Shown here in pieces: positions 7,329-33,811 of a stretch of 37,583 bases of DNA (positions within the stretch are counted from its first letter, which is position 1; every line of letters starts with the position of its first letter). This DNA comes from Candidatus Firestonebacteria bacterium RIFOXYD2_FULL_39_29. Its GTDB lineage: Bacteria; Oederibacteriota; D2-FULL-39-29. The stretch spans positions 1 through 37,583 of the forward strand of contig MFGV01000049.1 of the NCBI GenBank assembly GCA_001778375.1, written 5' to 3'. The notes beneath the pieces are model-generated. The model saw nothing but the letters and a program-made list of their open reading frames with translations, did no database searches and was not told the DNA's origin. A program made the position numbers and the translations under genes.

Positions 7329-8640
7329 TTACTTAATAATTTCCCAATACCCTTCTTTTCTGCCTCCACGCCTTTTTATTATTTTAGCTCTAACCAATTC
7401 TGCCAAATGATACTTTATTCCATCTTCAGTTATCCCCCCAATTTTACTGGCAAGGTCTTTTCTTGTTATTTTGGGATTTTGTTTTATTAAATCCAGTATT
7501 TTTTGGGCAGTCTTATGGGTAGTCTGTTCAGAAACACTACCCATAACATCTTTCCTTTTAAAAACAGTAAAGAACTGCCGTCCTATTTCTTCAAAATCGG
7601 CAGTCGGTTCTTTGGACAAGATTAACTTTATTCCCCTTCCCCATCTTTCAACAAAATGAACACGATGGAACATATCAGCAAGAAGTTTCGTTTCTTCTTT
7701 CTGAAGATTTACATTTTCTAATTTTGGCTATCGTCAGCCCTCCGTAAAGAAGACCAGGACTCCTAATCTCAAGACGGTCTCTGAATATAGCGACGTGAAC
7801 CGAGTCATCATTATAATAATCCCTGTGGCAGAACGCATTGATTACCGCTTCCCTGGATGCCGCTTTATCAATTTCTGGGACGTCTACTCTTTTAAAACCT
7901 TCAAGACGCATTCCGACGTTTATATGCTCAAGGATATATTCCTCAGCTCTTTGTATTAGTGTGAAAAGGTCTCCCTCAAAATCTTTCATATCAATAGGCG
8001 TGACGGTATCTGTAGTGGCAAATACACCACACCTTAACTTGGCATTTCTGAGAAAATTCTGCGGCTTCTTGCCAAAAAGTATAATGGCTGTATTCAAAAG
8101 CTTTCCCTGCCGAAGAAGGTTCAATTTGCTCAGAGAGTTCTTTATATCGTCATATTTAAGACCAAACGATTTAAGGAATACTTTCAACTTGTTAGGGCTT
8201 ATATCGCTCAACTTTGCATCAGGACAGACTTCAGAATCCCATTTAAACTTGTCTTTATTCTTTTCAAGGATAAAGTTTTCCAGTTCTTTGGCACTCATCT
8301 TCCTGTCTTCATCCTCGACTCTGATATATGCCCTGCCGTAAACATAATATGGCGTTTCTTTTCCTTTGAAATGGACTTTGATGCAGGACTTGCCTTTTAG
8401 TTTAATCTTTGTAATTGATGGATATATTTTAGATTCAATGCCGTTGGCTACTTCCCTGGATATGTCTCTGATGGTTTCCGAGCCGATTTGCTGACCAACT
8501 GCTTCCCCGTCGTTTTTTACGCCAAAATATAATTCACCTGCCTGATGTTTATTTAAAATAGCAACAATGGATATAACCGCTTCTTTTAATTCAGAGGTGG
8601 ATTTTTTAAACTCCAACGCCTCCGATTCTCTCCAACCCAT
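7329..8640 (-). pseudogene. AlbA_2 (Schlafen-like) / RecG-like regulator, frameshifted
   Basis: Two adjacent frames join into one protein of about 436 aa. The first (8640-7675) starts with an AlbA_2 domain (ESEALEFKKSTSELKEAVISIVAILNK.. then GELYFGVKNDGEAVG) and continues with the DxxxREAVINAFCHRDY segment and LEIRSPGLLYGGLT. It ends in RRNETSC-stop. One base out of frame, the DNA reads RRNELLADMFHRVHFVERWGRG, the usual continuation. The second part (7673-7329) ends in a winged helix (KITRKDLASKIG..). The shift is one extra base near 7685-7687. GGAG precedes the ATG. Family members are DNA-binding regulators, often in mobile or accessory regions. It may be a pseudogene, a frameshifted gene or a sequence error. 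Confidence 0.75.
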
Positions 8641-8839: not shown

Positions 8840-11464
8840 ATGAAAAAAACAAACAATATATCGAGATATTTAAGTATTTTAGCCTTTATATTTCCTCTAT
8901 CTATATATATATTAACAGCATGTCCGACAGTTTACGTGGGCGATTCAGGAGAAATGATAACGGCCGCTTATTATCTGGGAATACCACACCCTCCGGGATA
9001 TCCCCTTTACACAATGTTTGGAAAGCTCATGAGCACTCTCCCTTTATTCACAATCGCATATAGAGTCAACCTGACTGCATCATTCTTTGGCGCACTATCA
9101 ATACTCTTTTCTTATCTCCTTTTCAGAAATATTTCCTGTATATTCTTTAGAGAGACACGGGAAAAATCACCGGCAATTATGGATATAGCAGCATTCTTAT
9201 CGGCCATTTCTATCGCTTTCTCTTTCACCTTCTGGAATCAATCACTAATAACTAAAGGCGGACTTTACACCCTGAATTTACTCATAATAATTCTGGCACT
9301 CCATATACTCCTTCGTATTAGTGTTGAAGCCAAGCATCTTAACATGAAAAACTTCGTCTTACTTGGTGTGATTTGCGGGCTTGGTCTTGCTAATCACAAT
9401 ACAATGGTGCCATTGACCCTGTTTTTTGCGATATATACAGCCGGTGTTGTTTTCATTCAGGATAAAAAGAGAGCACTTGTCTGTCTGCCATTGATACTGA
9501 TCACAGCACTTGTCTCCGCAGCAATACTATATCTTTACCTTATAGTAAGAGCTAACGCAGCCCCGGTAATTAACTGGGGAAATCCTGAGAACATGGAGAA
9601 CCTGTTAAGACATATCTCAAGACAACAGTATCTTATAGTCGATCAGGGCAAAAGAACCATATCACATTTCTTCGTAGAACTCTACGGCTACGGACTTGCC
9701 GTCTTCAGCCAGAAGAACTTCCTGTTTATATTATTTCCTTTTGGAATATATTCCCTCTGGAAACATTCAAAAAAATATCTTTTATTAACCATTATGTTAT
9801 TTCTTTTTACCAGCGCAGGTTTTGCCGTTTTCACTAATTTTTACTTAAACACTCACGATCTTTATATTGTTGATCCTTTTCTTATTCCATCGTTTTTTAT
9901 GCTCTCACTCTTTTCTGTTATAGGATTATTTTTTATTATAGAAATACTTCTTCCAAAAAAGCTCCCTGTTTATGTACTTGTTTCAGTCATCGCAATTTTT
10001 TCTATTCTCTTAATACCTTTTAATTATTTCAAGTCAGATAAGAGCAAAAACTGGCTTGCTTTTAAATACGGAGCAAATCTTTTCAGAACAATAAAGAAAA
10101 ACAGCACCTTATTTACAGCAGGAGATAATGCAACATTTATAACCTGTTATCTGTCTAAAGTAGAAAAGATCCGCCCCGACATAATAATCCGTGATGACAC
10201 AGGGAATGTTTTTGACAATATTTATGGCAAGGATTTTCACGGTCTTGAGTTTGGCAATTATTATAAGCGTCTTAACGAAACACAATGGAAACTGATAAAC
10301 GAAGCAATAACCCCGGTTTACTGTGTAACCGGAAGCAATCTAAATAATGCACCCGGTTTTCAAATGAAACCCGACGGCGTGCTTTTTAGAATAGTTAAAG
10401 ATGCCGGGCAAAATATTGATACTTTTGATTTTTCCAAGTACGATACAAGCTCGTATGAAGACAATACTTTTTATAAGGATTTTTTGAACCGCGAACTTAT
10501 ATCCCTCTTTTACTTTTCAATGGCCGAAGTTGCTTTTGATACCGGTAACAAAAAAAGCGCTGAACACTATTACTTGAAATCCGAGGAATTCGGCGGCGAC
10601 ATGGCAACTACTCAGAATAACCTGGCAATATCTTACATAAGAAAAGAGTTCTATAAGAAAGCTATTGAACACGCTACAAAAGCTATAGATATTGATCCCA
10701 GATTTGCAGATGCCTACAACAATCTGGGGATTTCATACTATAAGTCCGGGAACTTTAAAGAGGCAATAACATATTACATCAAAGCTATAGAAACCGGGCC
10801 GAGAGACACATACCTTTATAACCTCGGGCAATTATATAGGGATGCAAATATGCCAGATGGAGCTATAGATGCTTATCAGAGAGCGCTTCTTATTAACCCC
10901 TACATACCCAAGGGTAATTATATTGTAGGGAATGCATATTTTGATAAAGGTGAATTTGACAAAGCAATTGAGTTTTACTTGAAAGGCCTCATTGTAGAAC
11001 CGGACTCCTTTGAAATTTACACTAATCTCGGAGCTGTTTACGACAGAAAAAGCATGTTAAAGGAATCAGGAGATGCATTTAAAAAAGCAATTTTTCTAAA
11101 TCCAAAACTCCCTGAAGCTAAGTACGGTCTTGGAAGTGTCCTTCAAAAACAAAAAGACTATGGAGCCGCCCTTAAGAACTATAGCGAAGCCGTAAGTATA
11201 AATCATAACTTTGCAGAGGGCTGGAATGCTCTGGGACTATTGCTAAATTCCACAGGCAACTACAAGGAAGCAGTAAACTGTTTCAAGAACCTGACAATAC
11301 TTACGCCAAAAGACGTGGAGGCCTGGAACAATCTCGGGATTTCATACGGAAGCATTAATGAATTTAATGAGGCAATTAAAGCATGGGAGAAAGCGCTTTC
11401 ATTAGACCCAAATTACAAAAACTCCAAACTAAACATCGAAAAAGTAAAGGGAATGATGAAATAG
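8840..11464 (+). CDS. DUF2723-TPR membrane protein A (TMEM260-like, candidate protein O-glycosyltransferase)
   Basis: An 874-aa protein. The N-terminal half is a multi-span GT-C-type membrane domain with the DUF2723 signature VYVGDSGEMI (Asp35, Glu38) and LGIPHPPGYPLYT just after the first membrane helix. Further family motifs are FWNQSLITKGGLYTLN (about 131-146), ANHNT (184-188) and VINWGNPENMENLLRH. After the last helix (about 400) comes a lumenal or periplasmic linker, then nine TPRs from about 550 to 870. Human TMEM260 has the same signature and TPR tail and is a protein O-mannosyltransferase, so I infer a polyprenyl-phosphate-sugar-dependent protein glycosyltransferase. The bacterial substrate is unknown. 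Two paralogues lie at 12718 and 17667. Confidence 0.85.
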   Translation: MKKTNNISRYLSILAFIFPLSIYILTACPTVYVGDSGEMITAAYYLGIPHPPGYPLYTMFGKLMSTLPLFTIAYRVNLTASFFGALSILFSYLLFRNISCIFFRETREKSPAIMDIAAFLSAISIAFSFTFWNQSLITKGGLYTLNLLIIILALHILLRISVEAKHLNMKNFVLLGVICGLGLANHNTMVPLTLFFAIYTAGVVFIQDKKRALVCLPLILITALVSAAILYLYLIVRANAAPVINWGNPENMENLLRHISRQQYLIVDQGKRTISHFFVELYGYGLAVFSQKNFLFILFPFGIYSLWKHSKKYLLLTIMLFLFTSAGFAVFTNFYLNTHDLYIVDPFLIPSFFMLSLFSVIGLFFIIEILLPKKLPVYVLVSVIAIFSILLIPFNYFKSDKSKNWLAFKYGANLFRTIKKNSTLFTAGDNATFITCYLSKVEKIRPDIIIRDDTGNVFDNIYGKDFHGLEFGNYYKRLNETQWKLINEAITPVYCVTGSNLNNAPGFQMKPDGVLFRIVKDAGQNIDTFDFSKYDTSSYEDNTFYKDFLNRELISLFYFSMAEVAFDTGNKKSAEHYYLKSEEFGGDMATTQNNLAISYIRKEFYKKAIEHATKAIDIDPRFADAYNNLGISYYKSGNFKEAITYYIKAIETGPRDTYLYNLGQLYRDANMPDGAIDAYQRALLINPYIPKGNYIVGNAYFDKGEFDKAIEFYLKGLIVEPDSFEIYTNLGAVYDRKSMLKESGDAFKKAIFLNPKLPEAKYGLGSVLQKQKDYGAALKNYSEAVSINHNFAEGWNALGLLLNSTGNYKEAVNCFKNLTILTPKDVEAWNNLGISYGSINEFNEAIKAWEKALSLDPNYKNSKLNIEKVKGMMK

Positions 11465-11537
11465 CAAAACACTTGGGATAAAATTCTAAATACAAAATAA
11501 GAATTTTAAGCAAATCTTTCATTGACTTACATTTCAT

Positions 11538-11882
11538 TTAACAATTTATCAAGCCGGACAACATCTTGGAAATATCTTCAATATCCTTTTTCAGTTCTTC
11601 ATTTTTGACGTTATCAATAAGTTCTTTACGCTTACAAATCTCTAAAATTGGAACACATTCAAATGCGGAGCCTCTTGATATTCTAAAGAAACTTGCCCTA
11701 TCCAGTTTATGATACCTGCCATTACCCTCTGCAATATTTGCAGCAATTGAAAGTGAAGCTCTGTTAAGCTGATCTGCCAAATAATAGTTACCTCTCTGAA
11801 AATTCCTGGTTAGATCGCCGATTTTACCTGCAAAATCAACAGACTTTCTATATACATCCAGTTTTTCGAATAGGAAACCCAT
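11538..11882 (-). CDS. four-helix bundle protein (23S rRNA-intervening-sequence protein family)
   Basis: A 114-aa protein of the IVP/S23 family, usually 110-125 aa. Recognisable parts are LDVYRKSVDFAGKI, the LADQLNRASLSIAANIAEGNGR motif, the FFRISRGSAFECVPILE helix and the C-terminal helix DISKMLSGLI. The fold is a homo-oligomeric four-helix bundle. The biochemical role is unknown, and most members stand free of 23S genes, as here. AGGGGTG precedes the ATG. It sits on the minus strand between two plus-strand DUF2723 genes, close to tmRNA and a pair of palindromic repeats, which suggests it was inserted there. Confidence 0.88.
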   Translation of the reverse strand: MGFLFEKLDVYRKSVDFAGKIGDLTRNFQRGNYYLADQLNRASLSIAANIAEGNGRYHKLDRASFFRISRGSAFECVPILEICKRKELIDNVKNEELKKDIEDISKMLSGLINC

Positions 11883-11971
11883 ATTTTCACCCCTTTAAAC
11901 GACGAATATAATCTGATAAATAGATACAAAGCCAAAAATCACATGAACTTGAAGAACATAAAACAAAAGAC

Positions 11972-12135
11972 GAAAATCGAGAATCGAAAGTTGACCGAAT
12001 CTCGACTATCGATTTTCTACTTATATCATGCTACTTTTAAAAGAACTCAAAACAAATACAGAACAACAAACCGAGAATCGAAAATCGAGAGTTGACCGAA
12101 TCGATATATTTCTCGAATCTCGACTATCGATTCTC
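11972..12135. repeat. two copies of a covarying palindromic repeat
   Basis: Copy 1 (11972-12017) has arms GAAAATCGA and TCGATTTTC. Copy 2 (12073-12135) has GAGAATCGA and TCGATTCTC. Both carry the inner pair TCGAGA/TCTCGA and the core agttgaccgaatc. Both outer arms changed together (A to G, T to C), keeping the pairing. Copy 2 has about 17 extra bases in the middle. Confidence 0.75.
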
Positions 12136-12136
12136 T

Positions 12137-12165
12137 ACCAATTTAAAGCTTAGCTTTAAATTGGT
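12137..12165. repeat. perfect palindrome including the tmRNA 3' ACCA
   Basis: A 13-bp perfect stem, ACCAATTTAAAGC and GCTTTAAATTGGT, with a 3-base loop. The right arm's TGGT is the complement of the tmRNA discriminator and CCA. No U-run follows, so it is not a normal intrinsic terminator. Confidence 0.85.
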
Positions 12166-12507
12166 GGAGGTGGCGGGAATCGAACCCGCGTCCGAAAGTA
12201 CATTCACGAAGATTACTACCTGCATAGCCCGTGATTAAGGCTTCGCCTGTCCGGCTTTCACGGACGAAATCCGTTCAAGCTAGCTCAAGAACTTTCTCGC
12301 CCCTAAACCCCGGAGCACAGTTTAGATAGCCAGCCTACTAATGGCGTTCAGCCGGCCTCGTAGGCGAAGACCGGGGAACGTGACAGCTTAAGCTGCCAGC
12401 GCTAAATTTGAGTTAGCGTTTGTGTTTTGCCGCCTGTTTTAAGAAGGTTGACGGCACCTCTGCAGGCAATCCGCGCTTCAATACCCCCGTCGAATCCATG
12501 CACCCCC
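12162..12507 (-). ncRNA. ssrA: tmRNA (transfer-messenger RNA)
   Basis: A one-piece tmRNA of 346 bases. The 5' end GGGGGTGCATGGATTCGACGG and 3' end GGTTCGATTCCCGCCACCTCCACCA form the tRNA-like domain. The acceptor GGGGGTG/CACCTCC has the G3-U70 wobble that marks alanine charging. The tag frame ends Asn-Thr-Asn-Ala-Asn-Ser-Asn-Leu-Ala-Leu-Ala-Ala-stop (TAA inside GCAGCTTAA). The in-frame codon before this is CAA, so the resume codon is uncertain. Pseudoknot-forming GC-rich segments follow the tag. It rescues stalled ribosomes with SmpB. It lies between DUF2723 proteins A and B, on the opposite strand. Confidence 0.96.
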
Positions 12508-12534
12508 AGGGACTTCAAATTCTAAGAACTAAAT

Positions 12535-12650
12535 TCTAAATCCTAAACAAAATCTTTGTATTTATATTAATAAACTTCCCTTTTAGTGATTAATGCTTTA
12601 ATTTTATTTTCTTTATTTAGTGCTTAGAGCTTTTACCTTAGTGCTTGTTT
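12535..12650. repeat. dispersed intergenic repeat, copy B
   Basis: Shares 'tatattaataaacttcc' (12563-12579) and the run of 'tagtgctta/gcttgttt' units (12616-12650) with 105-190, in the same order and spacing apart from a short insertion. It lies just upstream of tmRNA, where a tmRNA promoter would be expected. Confidence 0.6.
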
Positions 12651-12717
12651 TAATTATATCACATAACATCTAATATTCCAGTAGAAATTGAAAGTTTTTT
12701 ATGCTAATTTAATGATT

Positions 12718-15081
12718 ATGACTAAAAAGAAAAGTATTGCAGGAGTAATTGTTTTTTTAGTATCACTGACTGTTTACCTTGCCACGGTCTGTCCGACAGT
12801 ATATGTCGGTGATTCCGGAGAGATGATAACTGCAGCTTTTTTCCTGGGTATCCCCCACCCTCCAGGTTATCCTCTTTTTTGCCTGATAGGAAAAGCACTT
12901 TCCTTTCTTCCTATTTCCACTATTGCTTATAGAATCAACCTTGTAGCAGTTCTTTTCGGAGCCTTGACGGTCAGTATACTTTTTCAGTTTTTAAGTAAGC
13001 TTTTTCTTGATCTTGGTCAAAAAGGTCAAATATTCCCTTTAGCTTGTGCTTTACTTTTTGCTTTTTCAAAAACCTTCTGGGCACAGGCACTCATGGCAAA
13101 AGGCGCGCTTTATACAATAAATGCTTTCTTTATAATTACTCTTATCTATATGATTTATTCCAACAGAAATAATATGACCAAAATTAACTTAATTTTGATA
13201 GCACTGGTCAACGGACTCGGACTTGCAAATCATAACACTATAGCCCCGCTTTCTTTTTTATTTTTACTCTATGCCGTATCGTACTCAAAATCCATCAAAC
13301 AGGCAATATCATACAGTTTGATATACGCAGGCACTGCAATTTTTTCAGCATTATTAATATATATGTACCTTCCTATCAGATCCGCCGGAAATCCTGTTAT
13401 AGACTGGGGACATCCGGCATCTTTTTATGGTTTTTTAAATCATGTCCTTAGAAAACAATACAGTTTTTTTGCGACTTCAGAAAGAAGTATTCCTTTATTT
13501 TTAGAACAGACAAGGTTTTACTTCAGTTATCTCTCAGACCAGATGACACCGATATTTGTTCTTATTGCCGTACCCGGAGCAGCGGCACTCTTCAAATTCT
13601 CAAAAAAACTATTTTCCATCCTGTTAATTACATTTTTATTGACAGGCTTCGGTTTATTACTTTTGAGCAATCCTCAAATGAACGCAATTGATAAATTCAC
13701 TCTGGAAGTGTTCTTCATCCCCTCATATTTTGTTTTTACGGTCACAATACTGTTTGGCACTGGTTTAATACTTACAATATTAAAAAACAAATTGGCAGTT
13801 CCGATAATCACAGTAATTGCTCTTTTAAGTATTTTATTGGTTCTTAAAATAAATTACTTTGAAAACGATAAAAGTAATAACTTTATCTGTCATGATTACG
13901 GAGTAAATATACTCCGGTCTCCCGTCCCCGGCTCGACAGTTTTCGTTTCAGGAGATAACGGAACTTTCGCTGCTGCATATTTTAAATTTGTCGAAAAAGC
14001 AAGGCCGGACATTGAGGTTTATGATGATTATGGCAGAGTATTTAAAAATATTTACGGTCCTGATTTTTTATTTATGCCGGCAGGGGTTTATGAAAAACGT
14101 GTTACCCAGGTTCAAAGGGCTTTAATAAATACATCAATTAAACCCATATATTGCCTTGGCGGCAGCAGTATTTATGGTATGGACGATATACCTACGGTAA
14201 GCGAAGGTATACTTTACCGCGTTAAGAGCGCAAAAGCTATTGTCTTCCCCTTCCAGCCTTTACTGACCAAACGCGGACTTGACGACAAAAACATCTATCT
14301 TGATTATTGGTGCAAAGAAATAGCAGCCGGATATTATATGCTTGATGGCGACAGGTATTTTGAAAAAAAGAACCTTGAGGCAGCAAAAGCAAGCTATAAA
14401 AAAGCCGCCGAAATCGGCAGTGAAAGTTCAAATATCATGAGCTTGATAGGACTGGCCTTTGGGAAGTTCTCTATCGATGAGGCATTAACACTCTATAAAG
14501 AGACCGCAAATTCAACTTTGCGATCGCCCGAAATACTTAACAACTTAGGTGTTGCTTACTTTAAAAAAGGCCTTTATGACCAGTCTATATCCGCTTATGA
14601 AGAAGCTGTAAAGCTGGAGCCAAACTACTTTAAGTCTTATTTTAATATAGGTGTTTCTTTCAATTCCAAGGGAGACTTAAAGAAAGCTCTTGAGTATTTT
14701 GAAAAGACCATTCAAAAAAGCCCTGCGTATGTGGATGCTTACTATGGAACAGCAAATTGCTACTTTTTCCAAAAAGATTATGCAAACGCATTTAAATTTT
14801 ATGTAAAAGCTACTGAGATAAATCCAGAGTTTGCAATAGGATATAATGGGGCTGCTGCAGCAATGCACTCCCTCGGAAAATATTCTGAAGCCGTTAAATA
14901 CTACGAAAAAGCAATATCTTTCAAACCTGATTACATTGAAGCTTATGGTAATCTCTCAGGAGCTTATCAAGCCTTAGGTAACAAAGAAGGAGCTATCAGG
15001 ACATTAAAAACAGCTTTAACTTACTTCCCCGATAATCAAGGAATCATACAGCAACTGAGAAGTCTGGGAGAGAGATACTAG
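12718..15081 (+). CDS. DUF2723-TPR membrane protein B (TMEM260-like)
   Basis: A 787-aa paralogue of protein A. DUF2723 signature: VYVGDSGEMI (Asp32, Glu35) with LGIPHPPGYPLFC. Other conserved parts are FWAQALMAKGALYTIN, ANHNT, YLPIRSAGNPVIDWGHPASF and NHVLRKQYSFF. About a dozen membrane helices are followed by a soluble linker and seven TPRs (about residues 545-780). I placed the start at ATG 12718 because MTKKKSIAGVIV lines up with the N-termini of A and C. ATG 12712 is nearly as good; starts further upstream add unaligned residues. No Shine-Dalgarno sequence is visible. It is convergent with paralogue C. Function is inferred as for A: a membrane glycosyltransferase using a lipid-linked sugar. 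Confidence 0.84.
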   Translation: MTKKKSIAGVIVFLVSLTVYLATVCPTVYVGDSGEMITAAFFLGIPHPPGYPLFCLIGKALSFLPISTIAYRINLVAVLFGALTVSILFQFLSKLFLDLGQKGQIFPLACALLFAFSKTFWAQALMAKGALYTINAFFIITLIYMIYSNRNNMTKINLILIALVNGLGLANHNTIAPLSFLFLLYAVSYSKSIKQAISYSLIYAGTAIFSALLIYMYLPIRSAGNPVIDWGHPASFYGFLNHVLRKQYSFFATSERSIPLFLEQTRFYFSYLSDQMTPIFVLIAVPGAAALFKFSKKLFSILLITFLLTGFGLLLLSNPQMNAIDKFTLEVFFIPSYFVFTVTILFGTGLILTILKNKLAVPIITVIALLSILLVLKINYFENDKSNNFICHDYGVNILRSPVPGSTVFVSGDNGTFAAAYFKFVEKARPDIEVYDDYGRVFKNIYGPDFLFMPAGVYEKRVTQVQRALINTSIKPIYCLGGSSIYGMDDIPTVSEGILYRVKSAKAIVFPFQPLLTKRGLDDKNIYLDYWCKEIAAGYYMLDGDRYFEKKNLEAAKASYKKAAEIGSESSNIMSLIGLAFGKFSIDEALTLYKETANSTLRSPEILNNLGVAYFKKGLYDQSISAYEEAVKLEPNYFKSYFNIGVSFNSKGDLKKALEYFEKTIQKSPAYVDAYYGTANCYFFQKDYANAFKFYVKATEINPEFAIGYNGAAAAMHSLGKYSEAVKYYEKAISFKPDYIEAYGNLSGAYQALGNKEGAIRTLKTALTYFPDNQGIIQQLRSLGERY

Positions 15082-15239
15082 TTCATAAAGTTTGTAAAGT
15101 TTTTAACGTTTATAAGGTCCAAATCTTTGAAAGATATTCTTTAAAAAATACTTGTTTTTCTTTACTTCTTTAAATTCAATATATGCCACCGCTAAAAATA
15201 ACTTTACAAACCTTAAAAACCTTACAAACTTTATAAACT
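15080..15239. repeat. 40-base inverted repeat between convergent DUF2723 genes
   Basis: Left arm 15080-15119 and right arm 15200-15239 are reverse complements at about 33 of 40 positions, each made of 'gtttgtaaagttt'-like units. They abut the stop codons of paralogues B and C. The pair may act as a two-way transcription barrier or may be an expanded repeat of the 'aaagtcc' family. Confidence 0.7.
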
Positions 15240-15240
15240 C

Positions 15241-17667
15241 TCACTTTACATACTTAATCGCTTCCCTTGCTCCCTTATGATCAGGTTTCAATTCCAATGT
15301 CTTCAACCAGCAGTTCTTTGCTTCAGCGAGTTTGTTTAGCTTTAAATATGCGACACCAAGATTATAATGCAGATCGGCCAGCCCCGGATTATATTTCACC
15401 GCCAACTCATATTCTTTTACTGCTTCGTTAACCATATTTTTATTGATATAAATATTCCCGAGATTTGCCCTTGCATAAGGATCGTTTGGCACGACCTGTA
15501 AAATACTCTTGTAAATCTTCTCAGCTTCAGGATACTTTCCTTGTTTTTCACAGGCGATAGCCAAACTCACATAAAGATCAGACTTTCCGGGATATTGTCT
15601 GAATAACTTTTCCAGAACCGGCAAAGCTTTCTCAAGATCTTTATCCTCGATATACATAAAAACCAAAGCCTGAAAACTTTCAGACTGCCCCAATTTTGCC
15701 GCCTCGAGGTAACTTTTTTTCGCCTCCTCACTTTTCCCCATTGCTGATAACGCAATACCCATATTATGGTAAGGAGCAGCAATGGCCGGAGAGTCTTTAA
15801 CCGCCATTTTAAACTCCCTTACTGCATCTTCCAAACGGTTAAACGACAAGTAGGCATTGCCGAGATTATTTCTTCTCTCAAAAGAGGTCTTGTGAAGCTC
15901 TACGGCCTTTTCCATCTGCAATAAGTATTCATGGCTGCAGCTAAAACGTCCATAAACGGTTCCAATTTCATGCTGAACCCAATCCATATCATAAGCTATT
16001 TTTGCGGCAATATTGAGTTCACTTACCGCTTCTTCTTTTTTCCCTTTACTAAGAAAGGAATCTGCCGCGAATATATGATAACGGGCCAGCATATCCCTGT
16101 TAAAAATATCATATTTTTGCCAATCTGACGGATACTTAAAGCCGGGAATTGAAGTTTTTTGCCGCAAACCAAAACCACTGTCATTTATCCTGTACAATAT
16201 TCCTTCAGCTGTTTTTTTAAAAGCTTTATTCGCAAACACCCCGCTCTCAATAGTGTGATATATAGGTCTGCCTGAATTTATTGCCGCTTTGAGATAGCCT
16301 TCTGCTTTCGCTGACATATAATTTTTGTAAACCACTCCCCTATCACTCTTTGTGAGCAAAGTTCTATACGTAGTACCGTTTTCATCACAAACTATAACAT
16401 CAGGCCTGGCTTTTTCAACAAACTGCAAATATGCCAATTGATAAAGCGGTGTGTCCTCATTACCAAATATTATCGCGTTTTTTTCACAGGAATTTAAAGT
16501 GTCAACACCATAAGTATAGGCAAGATAATTATCACTTTTGTCATTAGCGCTATAATTTATCTTTAATAAGGAAATTGCGAAAAAAAGGATTGTGATGAGC
16601 AGAACAAATGATACAATTTTATTTTTATATTTGTCTTTTAACATAAATGCTCCAAAAACAATCCATAAAAGAACACACACATAAAGAGGAATAAAAAAAA
16701 GATTATTCACCTCCCTTGACGCTTGAGTGAGTTCAGAATTAAGAACAACAACAATACCTCCTGCAACAACAATAAATATCGCAAGGGTCATAAAAAACAA
16801 AGGTTTGATCAGTTTTGCCATATAATAGCAGCCCGCCGCGGCCAGAATAATCAGAACCACTGTATATTGTTTATTCAAAAGTATAAAAATATTTTTTAAC
16901 TGGGAAAAAAACACTGAGAAGTTAAAAGCTGTCTGATTTAGAGAACCGTACTGCCGTCTTAAAATATGATCCAGCATTCCCTTTAAATCCGCCGGATTAT
17001 TAGAATTGATAAGAGGGTATTCTAAAGCCCTTACAGGCAAATAGAGGTAAATAGTAAGTCCGGCAAGAAACAAAGATACACAACCGATAATTAGTTTTAT
17101 TCTCTTAAATGTATTTCTATCAGCAAGCCAAATAAACAACAAAAAGCCCGGCAAAAACCCTATAGCTGTCTGATGGTTTGTAAGGCAGAGCCCGTAAAAC
17201 AAAGAAGCAAGATACAGATATTTATCTTTTTTAGCATAATACCACAACACCATCTCATAACTGATGAGAATCAGGAAGAATATATTCAGTATATACAGAG
17301 CACCTTTTGCAGTCGTTGCCTGAGACCAAAAAGATTGTGAAAAAGCAAAAATAGCTGCAAAAAGAAAGGCAAATATCCCGGAACCTGAAATTATTTTTTT
17401 TAAAAGATGGAACAGGATAAATACCGTCAAAGCAGCAAAAAATACCGCCGTAAGATTAACCCTAAAAGCAATATTACTGACCGGTAAAAAACTAAACAGT
17501 TTCCCGATCAGGCAAAACAACGGATACCCCGGAGAATGAGGAATTCCCAAAAGATACGCCGCCGATATCAGCTCTCCCCCATCCCCGACATAAACCGTAG
17601 GGCAGGCGGTCGCAATATAAAGTGTCAGCGTTATCAAGAACAGGAAATAACCGAATAATTTTCGCAT
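15241..17667 (-). CDS. DUF2723-TPR membrane protein C (TMEM260-like, DGGE variant)
   Basis: An 808-aa paralogue of A and B. The signature reads VYVGDGGELI (Asp29, Glu32) with LGIPHSPGYPLFC, so the serine of DSGE and the first proline of HPPGYP are replaced. Other conserved parts are FWSQATTAKGALYILN, TNHQT, YLPVRALEYPLINSNNP and DHILRRQYGSL. A multi-helix membrane half is followed by eight TPRs from about 535 to the C-terminus. GAGGTC precedes the ATG. TadA lies 213 bases upstream on the same strand, with a repeat-filled spacer. The motif changes could mean another sugar or acceptor. Confidence 0.84.
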   Translation of the reverse strand: MRKLFGYFLFLITLTLYIATACPTVYVGDGGELISAAYLLGIPHSPGYPLFCLIGKLFSFLPVSNIAFRVNLTAVFFAALTVFILFHLLKKIISGSGIFAFLFAAIFAFSQSFWSQATTAKGALYILNIFFLILISYEMVLWYYAKKDKYLYLASLFYGLCLTNHQTAIGFLPGFLLFIWLADRNTFKRIKLIIGCVSLFLAGLTIYLYLPVRALEYPLINSNNPADLKGMLDHILRRQYGSLNQTAFNFSVFFSQLKNIFILLNKQYTVVLIILAAAGCYYMAKLIKPLFFMTLAIFIVVAGGIVVVLNSELTQASREVNNLFFIPLYVCVLLWIVFGAFMLKDKYKNKIVSFVLLITILFFAISLLKINYSANDKSDNYLAYTYGVDTLNSCEKNAIIFGNEDTPLYQLAYLQFVEKARPDVIVCDENGTTYRTLLTKSDRGVVYKNYMSAKAEGYLKAAINSGRPIYHTIESGVFANKAFKKTAEGILYRINDSGFGLRQKTSIPGFKYPSDWQKYDIFNRDMLARYHIFAADSFLSKGKKEEAVSELNIAAKIAYDMDWVQHEIGTVYGRFSCSHEYLLQMEKAVELHKTSFERRNNLGNAYLSFNRLEDAVREFKMAVKDSPAIAAPYHNMGIALSAMGKSEEAKKSYLEAAKLGQSESFQALVFMYIEDKDLEKALPVLEKLFRQYPGKSDLYVSLAIACEKQGKYPEAEKIYKSILQVVPNDPYARANLGNIYINKNMVNEAVKEYELAVKYNPGLADLHYNLGVAYLKLNKLAEAKNCWLKTLELKPDHKGAREAIKYVK

Positions 17668-27067: not shown

Positions 27068-28876
27068 TCACCCGCCGAGTGTAGGTCTGTAATAACCGTC
27101 TTCTGCGTCTCGCCAGTGCTTGAGCATTATTTTTACTTTCATTTGAAGCTCTTCCAAAATATCAGGACCAACAAGAAAGACATGTTGTTCTTCTTTCGTC
27201 TTTGCAGTATTAATAAGCGGAACTTTTGATCCTTTGAGTATTGAAATCAACTCATTTGTATTATCAAGTTCCCATCTTAAGGAGCGGTACATGAACCAGA
27301 AAGCCGGGGTCCCGCGGGGATTTCCCGGAACTTCAGGGTCAACTTCAGATGTTTTTGGATGAAGAGCATTCCATCTATCCCGTTCGTATGATAGAGTTGC
27401 AACCTGTAGAGTATGCCTTATTGTTAAAGTCATGCATTTTCTGACTTTAAGCTGAAGCATCTCAGTCAAAAGATCCTGTTTAATTTTTTCATCTTTTACC
27501 TTATTGCTTGCTTTTTCAAAAAGATAAGCCGCATTTGCATAAATACCGGATATTGAATCGATCGCAATGGCAATTACAGTAGCATGATCCCATGTCTTCA
27601 CCTCAGATTCACCGGTAAAGGACATATAATCCATATAAACCGACGGCTGTGAACCTTTTGACTGATAAATATTGGGCAGCCAATAAGCTTTTTCATCCTC
27701 TGTCAATCTTTCCTGATGTGCAACCAGCGGTCTGTTAATCCACCGTAAGGCCAGCAATCCCATCATATATCTTGTCATATTAGCGACACTAGAAAGGGTA
27801 TCAGCCTTACTGATTTTATACCAGGCATCTACAACTTCGTTTACAACTTCCTTGCCATAAAGACTTTCTGCAAATTTCTCAAGTAATAATATTTTGTCTT
27901 TTTCAGTCCCAACACCTTCAAATTTCGAAAATATTTTCAAGGCATTTAATTCTTTTTCTTTTCCTACGAGCATAAAATGATCATTTTTTAAATTTCTCAC
28001 ATTAAACAAGCTTTCCGCAATTGAACATGGATTTGAATAATCATTCGGCTGGTAAGTCCGCTGTGTCCATGGAGGGATATTTCTTATTACAAGCGGCACC
28101 GAGGTGTCTCCCGGCATTGACCCGTGTCCTGTTATTATTCCCATTCTTGGTTTTAAATTTGCAATTATGCTTTCCAGTTCAGCCTGAGGAAACCAGGTGC
28201 TGATAAAAACCTCAGCCTCAATTCCGGAATCAGAAGCTCCCTGCTGCACAGCACTTAAAAAACCGACTACTCTTTTACCCATGTTTCTGAACCTGCAATT
28301 TGAGGCACCATTTTCATTCGTATAAAGCTGGCCGGACCAGCATATACCGCTGCCGGCGTCATTTGTTTTAAAACAAAGTGTATCAATAAGAGGCGCCTCT
28401 TTTAACAGTTTTGCTACTGCTTTACGGTATAATTCCAGAACTTCCGGATTGTCCACGCAAGGCGAAAAAAACAGACCAACGCTTCTCAAGCTGTTATCGC
28501 ATCTTGCGCCGCGCCAAGTAGGATGTTTTTCATAAACTTTTTCATTCAACCAGTGAGGCTCATTACCGTAGTAGGCTGCTTTAAGTTTATATTTTGCAAC
28601 AATAGCATGCCTTTTTTTCAAAAAATCCATCTGTTTTTTAATAAATTCCTTTGGGAAAGCGTCTTTCAGTTCTTCCGGTAAAACATGCTTAAAAATTGAA
28701 GTATCCCCTTTTGCCCATTCACACCAGGGGCTGTCAATGTCAAGTCCTTGAAAATCAGTTCGATCCAAAAGAGGAGATATCAAAATATGCGTCACCCCTG
28801 CGGTTTTAGCTTCCTTAACAAGTTTATCAAACTCCTTCAAATCACTTGTATTCGGTGAAAATATTAATTTTCCCAC
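27068..28876 (-). CDS. cytoplasmic TIM-barrel-like carbohydrate enzyme, unassigned family
   Basis: A 602-aa protein without a signal peptide. The N-terminal 330 residues look like a (beta/alpha)8 barrel: AGVTHILISPLLDRTDFQG, KYKLKAAYYGNEPHW, PLIDTLCFKTNDAGSGICWS, EAEVFISTWFPQ and PRMGIITGHGSMPGD as successive strand ends, with acidic residues in NEPHW and NDAGSG. The C-terminal 270 residues are helical (DHATVIAIAIDSISGIYANAAYLFEKA, RDRWNALHP, AFWFMYRSLRWELDNTNELI). This resembles alpha-glucuronidase-type barrel-plus-helical layouts, but no family is recognised. It starts at GTG 28876, preceded by AAGGAGG. As the last gene of the secreted polysaccharide cluster, it may process the imported product. 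Confidence 0.55.
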   Translation of the reverse strand: MGKLIFSPNTSDLKEFDKLVKEAKTAGVTHILISPLLDRTDFQGLDIDSPWCEWAKGDTSIFKHVLPEELKDAFPKEFIKKQMDFLKKRHAIVAKYKLKAAYYGNEPHWLNEKVYEKHPTWRGARCDNSLRSVGLFFSPCVDNPEVLELYRKAVAKLLKEAPLIDTLCFKTNDAGSGICWSGQLYTNENGASNCRFRNMGKRVVGFLSAVQQGASDSGIEAEVFISTWFPQAELESIIANLKPRMGIITGHGSMPGDTSVPLVIRNIPPWTQRTYQPNDYSNPCSIAESLFNVRNLKNDHFMLVGKEKELNALKIFSKFEGVGTEKDKILLLEKFAESLYGKEVVNEVVDAWYKISKADTLSSVANMTRYMMGLLALRWINRPLVAHQERLTEDEKAYWLPNIYQSKGSQPSVYMDYMSFTGESEVKTWDHATVIAIAIDSISGIYANAAYLFEKASNKVKDEKIKQDLLTEMLQLKVRKCMTLTIRHTLQVATLSYERDRWNALHPKTSEVDPEVPGNPRGTPAFWFMYRSLRWELDNTNELISILKGSKVPLINTAKTKEEQHVFLVGPDILEELQMKVKIMLKHWRDAEDGYYRPTLGG

Positions 28877-28920
28877 TTTTCCTCCTTAATTGATGTTTTT
28901 TTAGCATACCCAACTATCTG

Positions 28921-31278
28921 TTATTTTTTTCCGCTTGACACAAAAGATTTAACAATATCCGCTATTAATGCTTCTTTATCTGTTTTAAATGTAATTCCAT
29001 TCTTACTGCAAAACGGTTTTATTGTATCACTATTTGAAAAAGTAATCAGGTTACGGACAAATGTTGAAGGTTGTATATCTCTAAAGTATAGTTCTTTAGC
29101 AATTCTTTCGCGGCCATTGCTTTCTTGCAATCCGATATGATGAAAATGCTCTCCGCCGGGAACAGCCTGAACCAATTTAGTATAGCCTTCCAATGATAAT
29201 TCCGGAGTAATCATAGAAGGAACAGAACCCTCGTGAAATTTAAGTCTTATTTTATTTATACTTTTTCTTCCGGGAACTATTCCGGCTAAATCTGCCGTTG
29301 AAGGCGAAGCAGCAACACCTGAAGACGCCAATGTTAATGGTTGAGCAAAAGGCGGATAAAAGTATAAGGAAAGCGTCTGGTTTTTACCGTCAACAAATAT
29401 TGCTTTTTCATAAACCTTGCCCGCATCCTCCATACACGCCGTAACACCCCACTCCAGACAGGAGGCATCTACCCAGCCCGAAGATTTTGTCCCTTGATCT
29501 GTTATCACAGGTCTCACAAATTTTCCTCCGGCTTTCCAGACAACATAATGAGTACTGCTATTTATATGCAGTCCTCCAAAACGCCAGATAGGCCAACGGG
29601 TATTGTCCGACATTAACCAGTAAGGATATCCTTCATCAAACTGGTCCAACCTCCACATATCGTTTATTCTTTCACCGCTGCAAGTTGTTTTAATATGAAA
29701 ATTATTTTTACCCAACAAAATGGGAATTTCAATACCAATTGCACCGATTTTCACACCCTGAGCTGCCGCAGGTAAGTCTAAAGTATGAGTCAACAAAAAC
29801 TCCCCGGGCTTTGCCGTTTTTTCTATTGCCACAGTAAAGGGCCAGTTGATCTCTTTTCCTTTTTTTAATTCCCCTGAAATATTTATTGCATTTCCTGCCG
29901 CAGAAACACCCGTTACCCCCCCTTCTATTCTTACTTTGTCACTCAATACGCTAAATTGTGTTCCGGTATTATCAGGGATATTATTCATTACATCAACAAA
30001 AACCCCCTTCCTCGGTACTTTATACACCTGAATAAAAGATTTTCCGATTTCTTTTTTATCAGCAGCAACAGATATTTCCAGTTTATATTCACCGCCAAGT
30101 ACATCCGAAAAATCAAGGTTAAGAGAAGAAACAACAGGAAGTCCGGGATTTCCTGCAACGGTCACTGCAGGAAATACTTTAATCTCTTTATTATCCAGAG
30201 TAAGCAAACGAAGATTAATTATTTTCTGCCCGACACTATCACTTATGCATGAAATATTTGTAGTGAATTTATTCCCGACTTTTTCAGGAAGTCCGTCCAT
30301 TCCAATAACACATTCCTTCGAAACCAGACATACATGATTCATCCCGACAAATGGGACAAATGTAAATATCATATCAAGAGATGTTCCGGCCTTTAAAGGC
30401 TCAGCATACGCGCTCTTGGTCTCTATAGTATTTACTTTAGAGTCAATCTGGGCCATCGCTATCCCGCCCGTATAAGACATTCCAATACCCGTCTTTTCGC
30501 CCAAATCACATGTAGCAGCCCAATTATCAACAGGCTCAATTATTGCAAAATTTGCTTCCATTGTTGCTCTTACAGGATCAAAAGCAAAATGTTCCATTAA
30601 TCCTACGTTCATTATATAATAATTATCATTAGTCTCTTTTTCTTTTCCTGCAACCGGAGATAAAACCGGCGTCATTTTGACATTTTGGTCGCCAACAGCC
30701 GTAGATTTGAATACCAATCCAAGCCAGGGTCTCCCTTTTTTCAAGCTAAATATTCTGGAAACAATGACTTTGTCCTTATCTTTTCCCACATCAGAATCAA
30801 TCGTTATCTTTATTTCATTTGCATCATTTTTTTCAATCTGCATTTTGCAGGGTGTTTTTTCCAAATTAACACCACTCCAATTGACTTCCATTCCAAATGA
30901 GAAACTTCCGCATTTTTGCCCGGTAATTTTATTTATTATCTCTTCAATAACCCCGCCTTTACCGTTTAATATCTTTGCCCGCACAAAACCGTTTTCGATA
31001 ACAACACTATCCTTGTCTTCCTTAATAGAACAGGATTCTGCCAAAGCTTTCTTTTGTTTTGCAATAACATCTGATGAAATATTGCACTTACCCGCATTGT
31101 CAGTCAACGTATCAAACGAGTTTATTGTTTGATTATTCATAAATACTTTATCAAAAACACCGCTTCCATTTTTATCAACCACCACTTTAAAATTACCGTT
31201 CACTAATTCTTCGGCATTAACAATTCGTATTGCAAATATTACAAGGATCAAGCTTAGAATTATTTTTATATTTTTCAT
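28921..31278 (-). CDS. large secreted beta-rich protein, distant relative of the PcRGLX/YetA-like neighbour
   Basis: A 785-aa protein with a Sec signal (MKNIKIILSLILVIFAIRIVNA). Its N-terminal FKVVVDKNGSGVFDKVFMN resembles FEVNKTGSGFIDKLWLD of the upstream gene product. WVDASCLEWGVTACMEDAG..VDGKNQTLSLYFYPPF in its C-terminal half resembles WLDVSNSKYGVTLGVRKGW..VDSKTGKLTVNIWPPE. It therefore appears to share the RIFT/beta-sandwich parts of that family while lacking the clear helical catalytic barrel. An Ig-like middle section is likely. Its ATG overlaps the upstream stop (ATGA) with GGTGGAG in front, so translation is coupled. No catalytic residues can be named. Confidence 0.6.
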   Translation of the reverse strand: MKNIKIILSLILVIFAIRIVNAEELVNGNFKVVVDKNGSGVFDKVFMNNQTINSFDTLTDNAGKCNISSDVIAKQKKALAESCSIKEDKDSVVIENGFVRAKILNGKGGVIEEIINKITGQKCGSFSFGMEVNWSGVNLEKTPCKMQIEKNDANEIKITIDSDVGKDKDKVIVSRIFSLKKGRPWLGLVFKSTAVGDQNVKMTPVLSPVAGKEKETNDNYYIMNVGLMEHFAFDPVRATMEANFAIIEPVDNWAATCDLGEKTGIGMSYTGGIAMAQIDSKVNTIETKSAYAEPLKAGTSLDMIFTFVPFVGMNHVCLVSKECVIGMDGLPEKVGNKFTTNISCISDSVGQKIINLRLLTLDNKEIKVFPAVTVAGNPGLPVVSSLNLDFSDVLGGEYKLEISVAADKKEIGKSFIQVYKVPRKGVFVDVMNNIPDNTGTQFSVLSDKVRIEGGVTGVSAAGNAINISGELKKGKEINWPFTVAIEKTAKPGEFLLTHTLDLPAAAQGVKIGAIGIEIPILLGKNNFHIKTTCSGERINDMWRLDQFDEGYPYWLMSDNTRWPIWRFGGLHINSSTHYVVWKAGGKFVRPVITDQGTKSSGWVDASCLEWGVTACMEDAGKVYEKAIFVDGKNQTLSLYFYPPFAQPLTLASSGVAASPSTADLAGIVPGRKSINKIRLKFHEGSVPSMITPELSLEGYTKLVQAVPGGEHFHHIGLQESNGRERIAKELYFRDIQPSTFVRNLITFSNSDTIKPFCSKNGITFKTDKEALIADIVKSFVSSGKK

Positions 31279-33737
31279 TTTTCTCCACCTGCCTTACTTT
31301 CAAATTTGCCCGACATATACAATGCTTCCATGGCGAAGGCCAAACCGCGGTATTCCGTAGATGAAAATATTGGGAAAGGAGAAATATCTCCCGGTCTTCC
31401 CGGCCAAACATCTTTTGATAATATATTTGAAGGACTTTTAGACATATTTCCTAATCCGCCGCCAAATGAATTTTGTACCAGATTAAGGTATTTCTCATCC
31501 TTAAATGTTCTCCAGGCAACCGAACTAAGCTCAAGAGCATCCGAACCCGGTTTGGTTTTATCCGCATGCATTTTTATTATTTCTTTTACTTTAGCATCAC
31601 CCGTTAAATCATAATATTCCATTAATGCGCCCATTCCTCCAAATCCCGTGCATGCTCTATCCTGGACATGTATTCTTTTAGTAAAATCATTCATAAGGTA
31701 TTTTATATACTTTTCATCCAGCGTTCTTTCCCATGCCGTAAGAAGAGCCTGAGAAGAATGTGCGCCTGATTCAGAGCTATTATCCGCGCTTGAATGACCG
31801 AACCTGGTGGCTTCTCCGTCCTGCCATGCCATCACGCTTATCGCATCCCGGTCCAGAATATCCTTTAATCTTCCATCGGCCATTAAATAATACAAATCTC
31901 TGACCGGCGCAGGTGTTCCTCCTCTTGCTCCTATGTACGCACATCCCCAGTGCGACACATTATGCCTGTGCGCGCATCCGGAAACATTTCTGTAAGGTCC
32001 CCAGTCCCACGGATATTCCTCTGTATTTATCGTATCTACGTCCTGAACATGTTTAACATTAGCTTCTCCTAATTCAAAATCCCTTCTTTGCCCTGTCCGG
32101 ATATATTGAAATAGAAAGAACCAACCTACAGGTCCAGAATCATCACCGCCCAACCAGGCCCAGCGACCGATGTCTAATGCCCATCTTCCGGTTTTCGGTC
32201 CCTGGTTCATCCACCACATAACATCCCCATAATCAAACATACCGTACCATCTGGATTTTTCCTGCGAGTCAAGATAATAATCCATCATCCCGCCCAGAAG
32301 CTTTTCTGCAGTCGGGAATTTCTTCGGGTCATACGGTCTGTAATATCCTAAAGCCCTCGTTCCGGCATAATAATCCGGTCCCGGATGAATAATTGGAAAT
32401 GCATCAAATGCCGAAGCCACTGCCTGACTGTTGGCTTGTTTTGTATTTCCCGCATGAAAATAAAAGAACACATCAGTTGTTTTTGAAGTACCTTTTGAAC
32501 AATTTCTATTAAAATACTCAGCATTAACTCCGCCCCTCGCACCTGTTTCACCGGTATTCCACTCTCTTGTATATCTTCTGTAATCTAAAAGTCCGGATTC
32601 CGGAGGCCAAATATTCACCGTTAATTTACCAGTTTTACTGTCAACCCAGACTGATTTTGGAAAACTTTGCCAGCCCTTTCTTACCCCCAGTGTCACACCA
32701 TATTTTGAATTGGACACATCAAGCCAGCATAAAGGCCTGCTGCCGGATTCCAGAACAACATCGGAAATTCCGGCTTTACTATTACCCCAGACTTTATAGG
32801 TATCGGCATCTTCTATGAAAAGAGAAACAGAAGGAAATTCACCCGGCTTTATTTCTTTTATAGTCGGTGTCGTAATAACTGTATCTTTCGGGATATCTAT
32901 ACCAACAGATAATCCTATATTTCTGATCATATCAAAATCAGAAGCCCCCTCATATACATACCAGTGCTGACAGCCAATGAGACCACTGCCCGCATAAGCA
33001 TGAACTCTCAAAACAAAATCGCACTCACCCCTGCGCTTTAGATCTCCTATCAACTTGCTTCCCAGTAATTTATATTTATAATATCCTTTTATCAAAATAA
33101 CCGTGTGAACGGGTCCGTCTTCTTCAACTTCCAGCTTGGTTATAATCACTTTTGAATTATCTGCCTTCCCCTTTGCACTCCAATTTCCCGCATACCAGCT
33201 CTTGTCGGAATTCAGACTTACAATATTCATGAAATTCTTTTCAGCATCTTCAGGTTTTACAACCAATTCAGAATCAGCATATTTCCCGTCCCCATCCGAA
33301 TCCAGCCATAGTTTATCAATAAACCCTGAACCTGTTTTATTTACTTCAAATTTTACAACTCCCGTATTAACTTCCAAGCTTCCGTCTTTTTTCCTGGTTG
33401 TTTTAACCGGCTTTAGAACCGCCGGTTTTGAGCCTTTCCGCTCCAGATTTAATGAATACGTTTCTTTTGAATCTGCGATAAAATCCAGAGAAATCCATTT
33501 AAAACTTTTATCCGGCCAAAATGCTATCGGTTTTACCTGACATGGAATTTCTGTTTTTCCTGCCAGAACTCCTACTGAATCAATCGAAGTAACTTTGCCT
33601 CTAGCTATCGGCACTCCGCTTCGAACAGGATATACGCCCGCCCATTCGGTCTGACCAAAATCCACTTTCAACGGAATCGGCGCCGCAAGAACAGAAGCAG
33701 CTAAACACAAGAACAGACCGACAGATATTTTCTTCAT
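31275..33737 (-). CDS. secreted PcRGLX/YetA-like protein (exo-rhamnogalacturonan lyase family)
   Basis: An 820-aa protein with a Sec signal (MKKISVGLFLCLAASVLAA). The N-terminal RIFT barrel has the family pattern IPLKVDFGQTEWAGVYPVRSGVPIARGKV..IPCQVKPIAFWPDKSFKWISLDF. A middle beta-sandwich ends in WLDVSNSKYGVTLGVRKGWQSFPK..VNIWPPESG. The C-terminal half is an (alpha/alpha) toroid-like domain with WWMNQGPKTGRWALDIGRWAWLGGDD, CAHRHNVSHWG and SSESGAHSSQALL. Fungal PcRGLX (PL26) cleaves rhamnogalacturonan from chain ends; substrate here is inferred. I chose ATG 33737 (GGAGG upstream) because the signal peptide begins there. It overlaps the next gene by 4 bases. Confidence 0.78.
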   Translation of the reverse strand: MKKISVGLFLCLAASVLAAPIPLKVDFGQTEWAGVYPVRSGVPIARGKVTSIDSVGVLAGKTEIPCQVKPIAFWPDKSFKWISLDFIADSKETYSLNLERKGSKPAVLKPVKTTRKKDGSLEVNTGVVKFEVNKTGSGFIDKLWLDSDGDGKYADSELVVKPEDAEKNFMNIVSLNSDKSWYAGNWSAKGKADNSKVIITKLEVEEDGPVHTVILIKGYYKYKLLGSKLIGDLKRRGECDFVLRVHAYAGSGLIGCQHWYVYEGASDFDMIRNIGLSVGIDIPKDTVITTPTIKEIKPGEFPSVSLFIEDADTYKVWGNSKAGISDVVLESGSRPLCWLDVSNSKYGVTLGVRKGWQSFPKSVWVDSKTGKLTVNIWPPESGLLDYRRYTREWNTGETGARGGVNAEYFNRNCSKGTSKTTDVFFYFHAGNTKQANSQAVASAFDAFPIIHPGPDYYAGTRALGYYRPYDPKKFPTAEKLLGGMMDYYLDSQEKSRWYGMFDYGDVMWWMNQGPKTGRWALDIGRWAWLGGDDSGPVGWFFLFQYIRTGQRRDFELGEANVKHVQDVDTINTEEYPWDWGPYRNVSGCAHRHNVSHWGCAYIGARGGTPAPVRDLYYLMADGRLKDILDRDAISVMAWQDGEATRFGHSSADNSSESGAHSSQALLTAWERTLDEKYIKYLMNDFTKRIHVQDRACTGFGGMGALMEYYDLTGDAKVKEIIKMHADKTKPGSDALELSSVAWRTFKDEKYLNLVQNSFGGGLGNMSKSPSNILSKDVWPGRPGDISPFPIFSSTEYRGLAFAMEALYMSGKFESKAGGEK

Positions 33738-33811
33738 TTCAGATTCCTCCATATTGCATATATTTATTATCCTCACAACCCTTTTAAATCAATCTCAAAT
33801 CCCTTTTTCTG

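Follow-up and report, generated by a model that had tools for sequence, protein, structure and literature searches.

TMEM260 has only recently been recognised as an O-mannosyltransferase, and the human enzyme targets IPT domains. Human TMEM260 belongs to CAZy family GT117 (PDB 9rql, 9rqm and 9rqn), carries the signature GDSGE...HPPGYP in EL1, and has its TPRs in a C-terminal module on the catalytic side, which is lumenal in human (PMC11292533). TMTC1-4 (GT105) likewise combine a GT-C membrane half with C-terminal TPRs on the same side, and have a DD motif in EL1 and an Asp in EL2 (PMC7801869). For TMEM260 and TMTC1-4 alike, recruitment of acceptors by the TPRs is a published hypothesis (PMC11292533). 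The PMT/POMT and ArnT enzymes (PF02366, PF13231) share the GT-C fold and the EL1 Asp, have an EL2 Asp, and possess no TPRs. In bacteria, DUF2723 proteins (Bacteroidota and others) belong to the same PF11028 family and have the EL1 acid; the literature searched gave no function for bacterial TMEM260 relatives.

Here we analysed a window of 37,583 nucleotides, which is one whole contig (C49) of the Candidatus Firestonebacteria bacterium RIFOXYD2_FULL_39_29 genome (3.0 Mb, 96% complete). The initial annotation had described three paralogues of 874, 787 and 808 aa with a common signature in this window and had counted 9, 7 and 8 putative TPRs in them, and we indeed found three intact reading frames, each with the motifs, PF11028 and TPRs. 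The features are as follows, with "Lys class" referring to the EL2 residue described below.

8840..11464, plus strand: gene 1, 874 aa TMEM260-like GT-C glycosyltransferase with a nine-TPR tail, Lys class (PF11028 E 7.9e-31 plus TPRs; 9rql E 1.1e-27; model pLDDT 91)
8939..9004, plus strand: gene 1 EL1 motif GDSGE...LGIPHPPGYP, residues 34-55 (D35, E38, H50)
9254..9262, plus strand: gene 1 EL2 site K139-G-G, a Lys and two-residue insertion replacing the EL2 acid (E at the human TMEM260 position)
9392..9403, plus strand: gene 1 NHNT motif, residues 185-188, EL3, start of TM6
10481..11458, plus strand: gene 1 TPR superhelix, residues 548-873, nine helix pairs and a cap in the model, with Pfam TPR matches
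12718..15081, plus strand: gene 2, 787 aa TMEM260-like GT-C protein with a TPR tail, Lys class (PF11028 E 3.9e-29; 9rql E 2e-36; GT-C fold in residues 1-521)
12808..12873, plus strand: gene 2 EL1 motif, residues 31-52 (D32, E35, H47), in near-invariant alignment columns
13099..13107, plus strand: gene 2 EL2 site K128-G-A, from a sequence alignment including human TMEM260
15241..17667, minus strand: gene 3, 808 aa TMEM260-like GT-C protein with a TPR tail, Lys class (PF11028 E 6.6e-29; 9rql E 1e-32)
17521..17586, minus strand: gene 3 EL1 motif GDGGE...LGIPHSPGYP, residues 28-49 (D29, E32, H44)
17299..17307, minus strand: gene 3 EL2 site K121-G-A, from the same alignment including human TMEM260

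The ATG chosen for gene 2 fits the start of its orthologue in L021 (787 aa), and the longest frame, from a TTG at 12688, encodes 797 aa. GDSGE/GDGGE...LGIPHxPGYP and NHNT/NHQT are common to all three proteins, and gene 2 and gene 3 are 37% and 30% identical to gene 1, respectively. Other genes in the window were also noted. A 23S rRNA-intervening-sequence (four-helix) protein gene (PF05635) lies between genes 1 and 2 (11538-11882, minus strand), and an AlbA_2/RecG-like gene (7329-8640, minus strand) is broken into two frames, 7675-8640 and 7329-7673; a longer gene similar to it (464 aa) is present on contig C7 (L142:3515-4906). Four large genes in a row (27068-37141, minus strand) have the appearance of a carbohydrate-use cluster and encode proteins of 602 and 785 aa without a Pfam match, a PcRGLX-like protein of 833 aa and a CBM9/NHL protein of 1109 aa.

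The DUF2723 membership proposed in the initial annotation was confirmed by a Pfam profile search, in which genes 1-3 scored 101-108 bits against a curated cut-off of 24.2, about fourfold above it (E 1e-29 to 1e-31), with the PF11028 domain near the N-terminus and the TPR tail behind it in each protein. When the membrane halves (~430-450 residues) were searched by sequence, human TMEM260 (9rql and two further entries) was the one significant PDB match, and the alignment spanned the whole membrane half (E 1e-27, 2e-36 and 1e-32 for genes 1, 2 and 3). Unlike the human protein, genes 1-3 have Lys-Gly-x in place of its EL2 Glu, and gene 1 has nine TPRs. PF08409 (TMTC_DUF1736) and PF02366 (PMT, GT39) were both absent among the listed Pfam matches of genes 1-3, in contrast to TMTC1-4 and PMT/POMT; PF08409 had no match in the genome, with the control genomes likewise silent, and the only PF02366 matches of the genome are on C41 and C30, outside the window. 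Remote profile homology nevertheless links the trio to the PMT/POMT and ArnT proteins, and a polyprenyl-phosphate sugar donor is expected for both. The GT-C plus TPR architecture is human TMEM260's own layout, already known and widespread; what is new here is the trio as an old unit and a Lys subfamily with a two-residue insertion. Two more proteins that combine a membrane part with TPRs and show a TMTC-like signature at the N-terminus (FNLDDNAIIKDN...) are encoded at L015:423-2081 (C80), directly after a Lys-class TMEM260-like gene, and at L143:2819-4750 (C5), the latter with a weak PMT_2 match; TPRs were found in both.

The full-length model of gene 1 (pLDDT 91, pTM 0.83) contained about 11 membrane helices, followed at about 406-520 by a small alpha/beta domain, and a tail of nine TPR helix pairs with a cap helix, matching the nine TPRs previously counted from its sequence. 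Given that Foldseek with this full model listed TPR and other helical-repeat proteins and no GT-C enzyme, the membrane half of gene 2 (residues 1-521) was folded and searched alone. This model (pLDDT 91.5, pTM 0.91) matched only GT-C glycosyltransferases in the PDB down to rank 37, including STT3, PglB, Pmt4, AglB, Pmt1/2, DPY19, AftD, EmbA/B, ALG9 and ALG3, partly as chains of larger complexes. Lack of a GT-C fold, which the initial annotation had named as refuting its proposal, was therefore not observed. The short loops of gene 1 at 103-110, 163-168, around 208, 303-311 and 371-374 carry Lys/Arg and would lie inside, which would place the GDSGE loop, the EL2 site, the EL3 NHNT motif and the TPRs of the model all in the periplasm, as the counterpart of the lumenal side in human TMEM260.

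The genome contains 11 PF11028 genes, and the family is present in 43 of 45 genomes of the phylum, with a median of 6 and a maximum of 16 copies. A set of 38 homologues, with members from Firestonebacteria, Elusimicrobia, Clostridia, Desulfobacterales and Planctomycetota, gave a PF11028 match in every case and a TPR-family match in up to 34. Under random placement, the probability of finding three of the 11 genes so close together (9 kb) is about 0.002; this closeness is unusual, yet it is paralogy rather than a new system. A survey of neighbours in related genomes, as proposed with the initial annotation, showed that the arrangement is conserved: the order and convergent orientation of genes 2 and 3 are kept in L021 and L023, and those of all three genes in L022. 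In L024, gene 2 has no gene 3 beside it, and L025 and L027 have gene 3 but not gene 2 at the site. Over the N-terminal 500 residues, genes 1 and 2 are 46-49% identical to their counterparts, and gene 3 is 38% identical. The trio is an old unit: each gene has an orthologous clade of its own, and gene order has persisted at 38-49% identity.

Two genes follow the gene 1 orthologue within a few bases in L020 (4271-7202) and L022 (8980-11911), encoding DUF5107 and NHL-repeat proteins in L022, and are possible partners or clients. Gene neighbours as acceptors were nevertheless rejected, since this pair is absent beside gene 1 in the window and the single DUF5107 gene of the genome is on contig C46. 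In the same genome, a Glu-class TMEM260-like gene, unlike the Lys-class genes of the window, lies in what looks by sequence like a polysaccharide-synthesis cluster (L014:8220-17695, contig C24).

The active site differs from that of TMEM260: the EL1 acid is conserved (D35/E38 near-invariant), but each of the three proteins has Lys in place of the EL2 Glu, together with an insertion of two residues. Among the 38 homologues, the gene 1 positions are kept in 37 (D35), 36 (E38), 36 (H50) and 34 (H186), and within the Lys class they are kept in 78/79, 78/79, 79/79 and 78/79, respectively, together with D429 (79/79); conservation of the EL1 Asp/Glu/His, the EL3 His and D429 in the Lys class equals that in the Glu class. 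In an alignment of 139 family proteins, including some duplicate records, the EL2 position is occupied by Lys in 88 proteins, by Glu in 38, by Arg in 10 and by Asp in 3, and the two-residue insertion directly follows it in 88/88 Lys proteins and in no others. The Lys class includes all three window genes and eight of the 11 family genes of the genome. Human TMEM260 has Glu (SIAAEVF) in the alignment with genes 2 and 3, and this Glu is invariant in 21 diverse Glu-class proteins. It is also present in the three Bacteroidota DUF2723 proteins read, which were sampled through plasmid records and further differ from genes 1-3 in having FWDCGE/FWDCPE in EL1 and no clear TPRs. The Lys label requires five changes on a quick tree of the family, and no Lys was found among the homologues read outside Firestonebacteria and Elusimicrobia, a small and pattern-selected sample. 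In Firestonebacteria-type genomes, 4-9 TPRs were detected in the Lys class (26 proteins) and 0-2 in the Glu class (12 proteins), although these sequences are related and non-independent; the link is weaker elsewhere in the phylum.

The corresponding acid has been studied in other GT-C enzymes. In ArnT it is D158, in EL2 and N-terminal to TM4, which is in contact with the sugar and forms a pair with a Lys of EL3; in TMTC1 the EL2 acid is D169 (PMC7801869). In Pmt4, D197, whose loop is not named there, is placed with D84 for metal binding (PMC12705809). M. tuberculosis PMT D176 is essential, its D176A exchange almost abolishing and D176N abolishing activity (PMC12331936). The EL2 site of the family is 92-104 residues past the EL1 Asp, compared with 103 residues for ArnT and 102 for M. 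tuberculosis PMT, and hhalign against the PMT/ArnT-like proteins of the genome was significant, with both loops a few residues out of register. From topology, conservation and this rough spacing, we infer that the EL2 Lys is probably equivalent in position to the EL2 acid of other GT-C enzymes. Because the Lys class retains the EL1 residues, the EL3 His and D429, it is unlikely to have lost activity. The presence of a fixed Lys next to where the leaving group is expected points to an altered mechanism or donor, and since genes 1-3 all have this Lys instead of the EL2 acid, the sugar and chemistry are not transferable from the human enzyme.

In close orthologues, the TPR tails share 67-81% identity and the GT-C halves 74-77%, whereas the tails of paralogues share 22-30% compared with 36-41% for their GT-C halves; among distant orthologues of gene 2, tail identity falls to 33-35%. 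This pattern is in line with different tail partners, and repeats under weak constraint could look similar. The earlier idea that the TPRs choose acceptors thus gains support from tails that are kept in close orthologues and diverged in paralogues, and it matches the hypothesis published for the human proteins (PMC11292533), with the TPR role itself remaining a putative one.

The initial annotation had seen no sugar-lipid synthase in the window; elsewhere in the genome, a candidate was identified among 11 GT2 matches. The GT2 protein encoded on C22 (L137:3809-4528, 240 aa) aligns along almost its entire length with the dolichol-phosphate mannose synthase of P. furiosus (E 2.6e-31) and is a candidate polyprenol-phosphate-sugar synthase by sequence. 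A second candidate on C54 is less clear (E 1.7e-26). Matches of the C22 type are present in 44 of 45 genomes, and because two of these do not have the TMEM260-like family, the presence of this GT2 is permissive rather than specific.

Taken together, the best explanation, to which we assign a probability of about 0.52, is that genes 1-3 encode active GT-C glycosyltransferases with 11 TMs that face the periplasm, belong to a Lys subfamily within the TMEM260 superfamily (PF11028; CAZy GT117), use a polyprenyl-phosphate sugar donor and recruit acceptors, most likely exported proteins, through their TPRs. It builds on the family, fold, EL1 conservation, Lys/insertion signature, orthology, synteny and donor-synthase candidate, from which activity, donor, acceptor and the roles of the Lys and TPRs are predicted. 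The donor would be made on the cytoplasmic side, the EL1 Asp/Glu (D35/E38 in gene 1) would activate the acceptor hydroxyl, and the periplasmic TPR superhelix would bring in a different set of acceptors for each paralogue. The EL2 lysine replacing the second active-site acid may donate a proton, stabilise the leaving phosphate or accommodate a donor sugar of different charge. By analogy, loss of an acid essential in M. tuberculosis PMT (PMC12331936) could mean another reaction. Of the bacterial protein O-glycosylation set originally proposed, the family, the GT-C fold and the EL1 acid stand and protein glycosylation is plausible; O-mannosylation of the TMEM260 type is not established, the EL2 Lys giving reason for doubt. 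A bolder version, which we hold only tentatively, is that the Lys subfamily is a mechanistically distinct protein-modifying GT-C class multiplied across the phylum, with a non-mannose sugar or a Lys in place of the carboxylate at the leaving group, and with each TPR tail serving its own exported proteins in a many-enzyme periplasmic glycosylation system.

The trio may instead act on lipids or surface polysaccharides, like ArnT, AftD and EmbB, with the TPRs holding partners of an envelope-assembly machine. The remote homology to PMT/ArnT-like proteins, the action of several fold-matched relatives on glycans (AftD, EmbB, ALG9) and the Glu-class paralogue in the polysaccharide-type cluster (L014) all speak for such acceptors. 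Yet the enzymes that match best in fold (STT3, PglB, Pmt4) use protein acceptors, the nearest characterised relative works on proteins, and the trio lies outside any polysaccharide cluster, and we therefore consider this rather unlikely.

More doubtful still is that genes 1-3 are plain TMEM260 equivalents, which would O-mannosylate exported proteins by the human chemistry, at Ser/Thr within their Ig-like (IPT) domains. The superfamily and layout are the same, the DPM-synthase-like GT2 is present in 44 of 45 genomes, and IPT/TIG domains are present in all nine nearest genomes, with 39 matches in this one. However, the EL2 Glu has changed to Lys with an insertion, IPT is absent from many genomes of the phylum with 5-15 family genes (G041: 15 genes, 0 IPT), and the copy numbers of family and IPT domains correlate weakly (rho 0.29, p 0.056). 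IPT domains, which are rich in this lineage, were thus not adopted as general acceptors; they are possible local clients. On contig C18 (127,554 bp; part = L154), an uninterrupted frame of 26,721 codons contains TIG/IPT domains (TIG matches at C18:116987-119656), and its product is a giant protein that is probably surface-exposed.

That the proteins are catalytically dead membrane anchors for TPR scaffolds is very improbable. The acid essential in M. tuberculosis PMT is missing (PMC12331936), and there is precedent for GT-C relatives without activity, such as PIG-U (PMC7801869), but conservation of the EL1 Asp/Glu/His, the EL3 His and D429 is no lower than in the Glu class, and both the Lys and its insertion are fixed.

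We regard the trio as GT-C enzymes that are active in the periplasm, with proteins as their probable acceptors. With its 11 paralogues in two active-site classes, whose tails have diverged among paralogues while close orthologues keep theirs, the genome offers a natural test of acceptor choice by TPRs in GT-C enzymes, and the same paralogue set is a test of how far GT-C catalysis tolerates a replaced second active-site acid.
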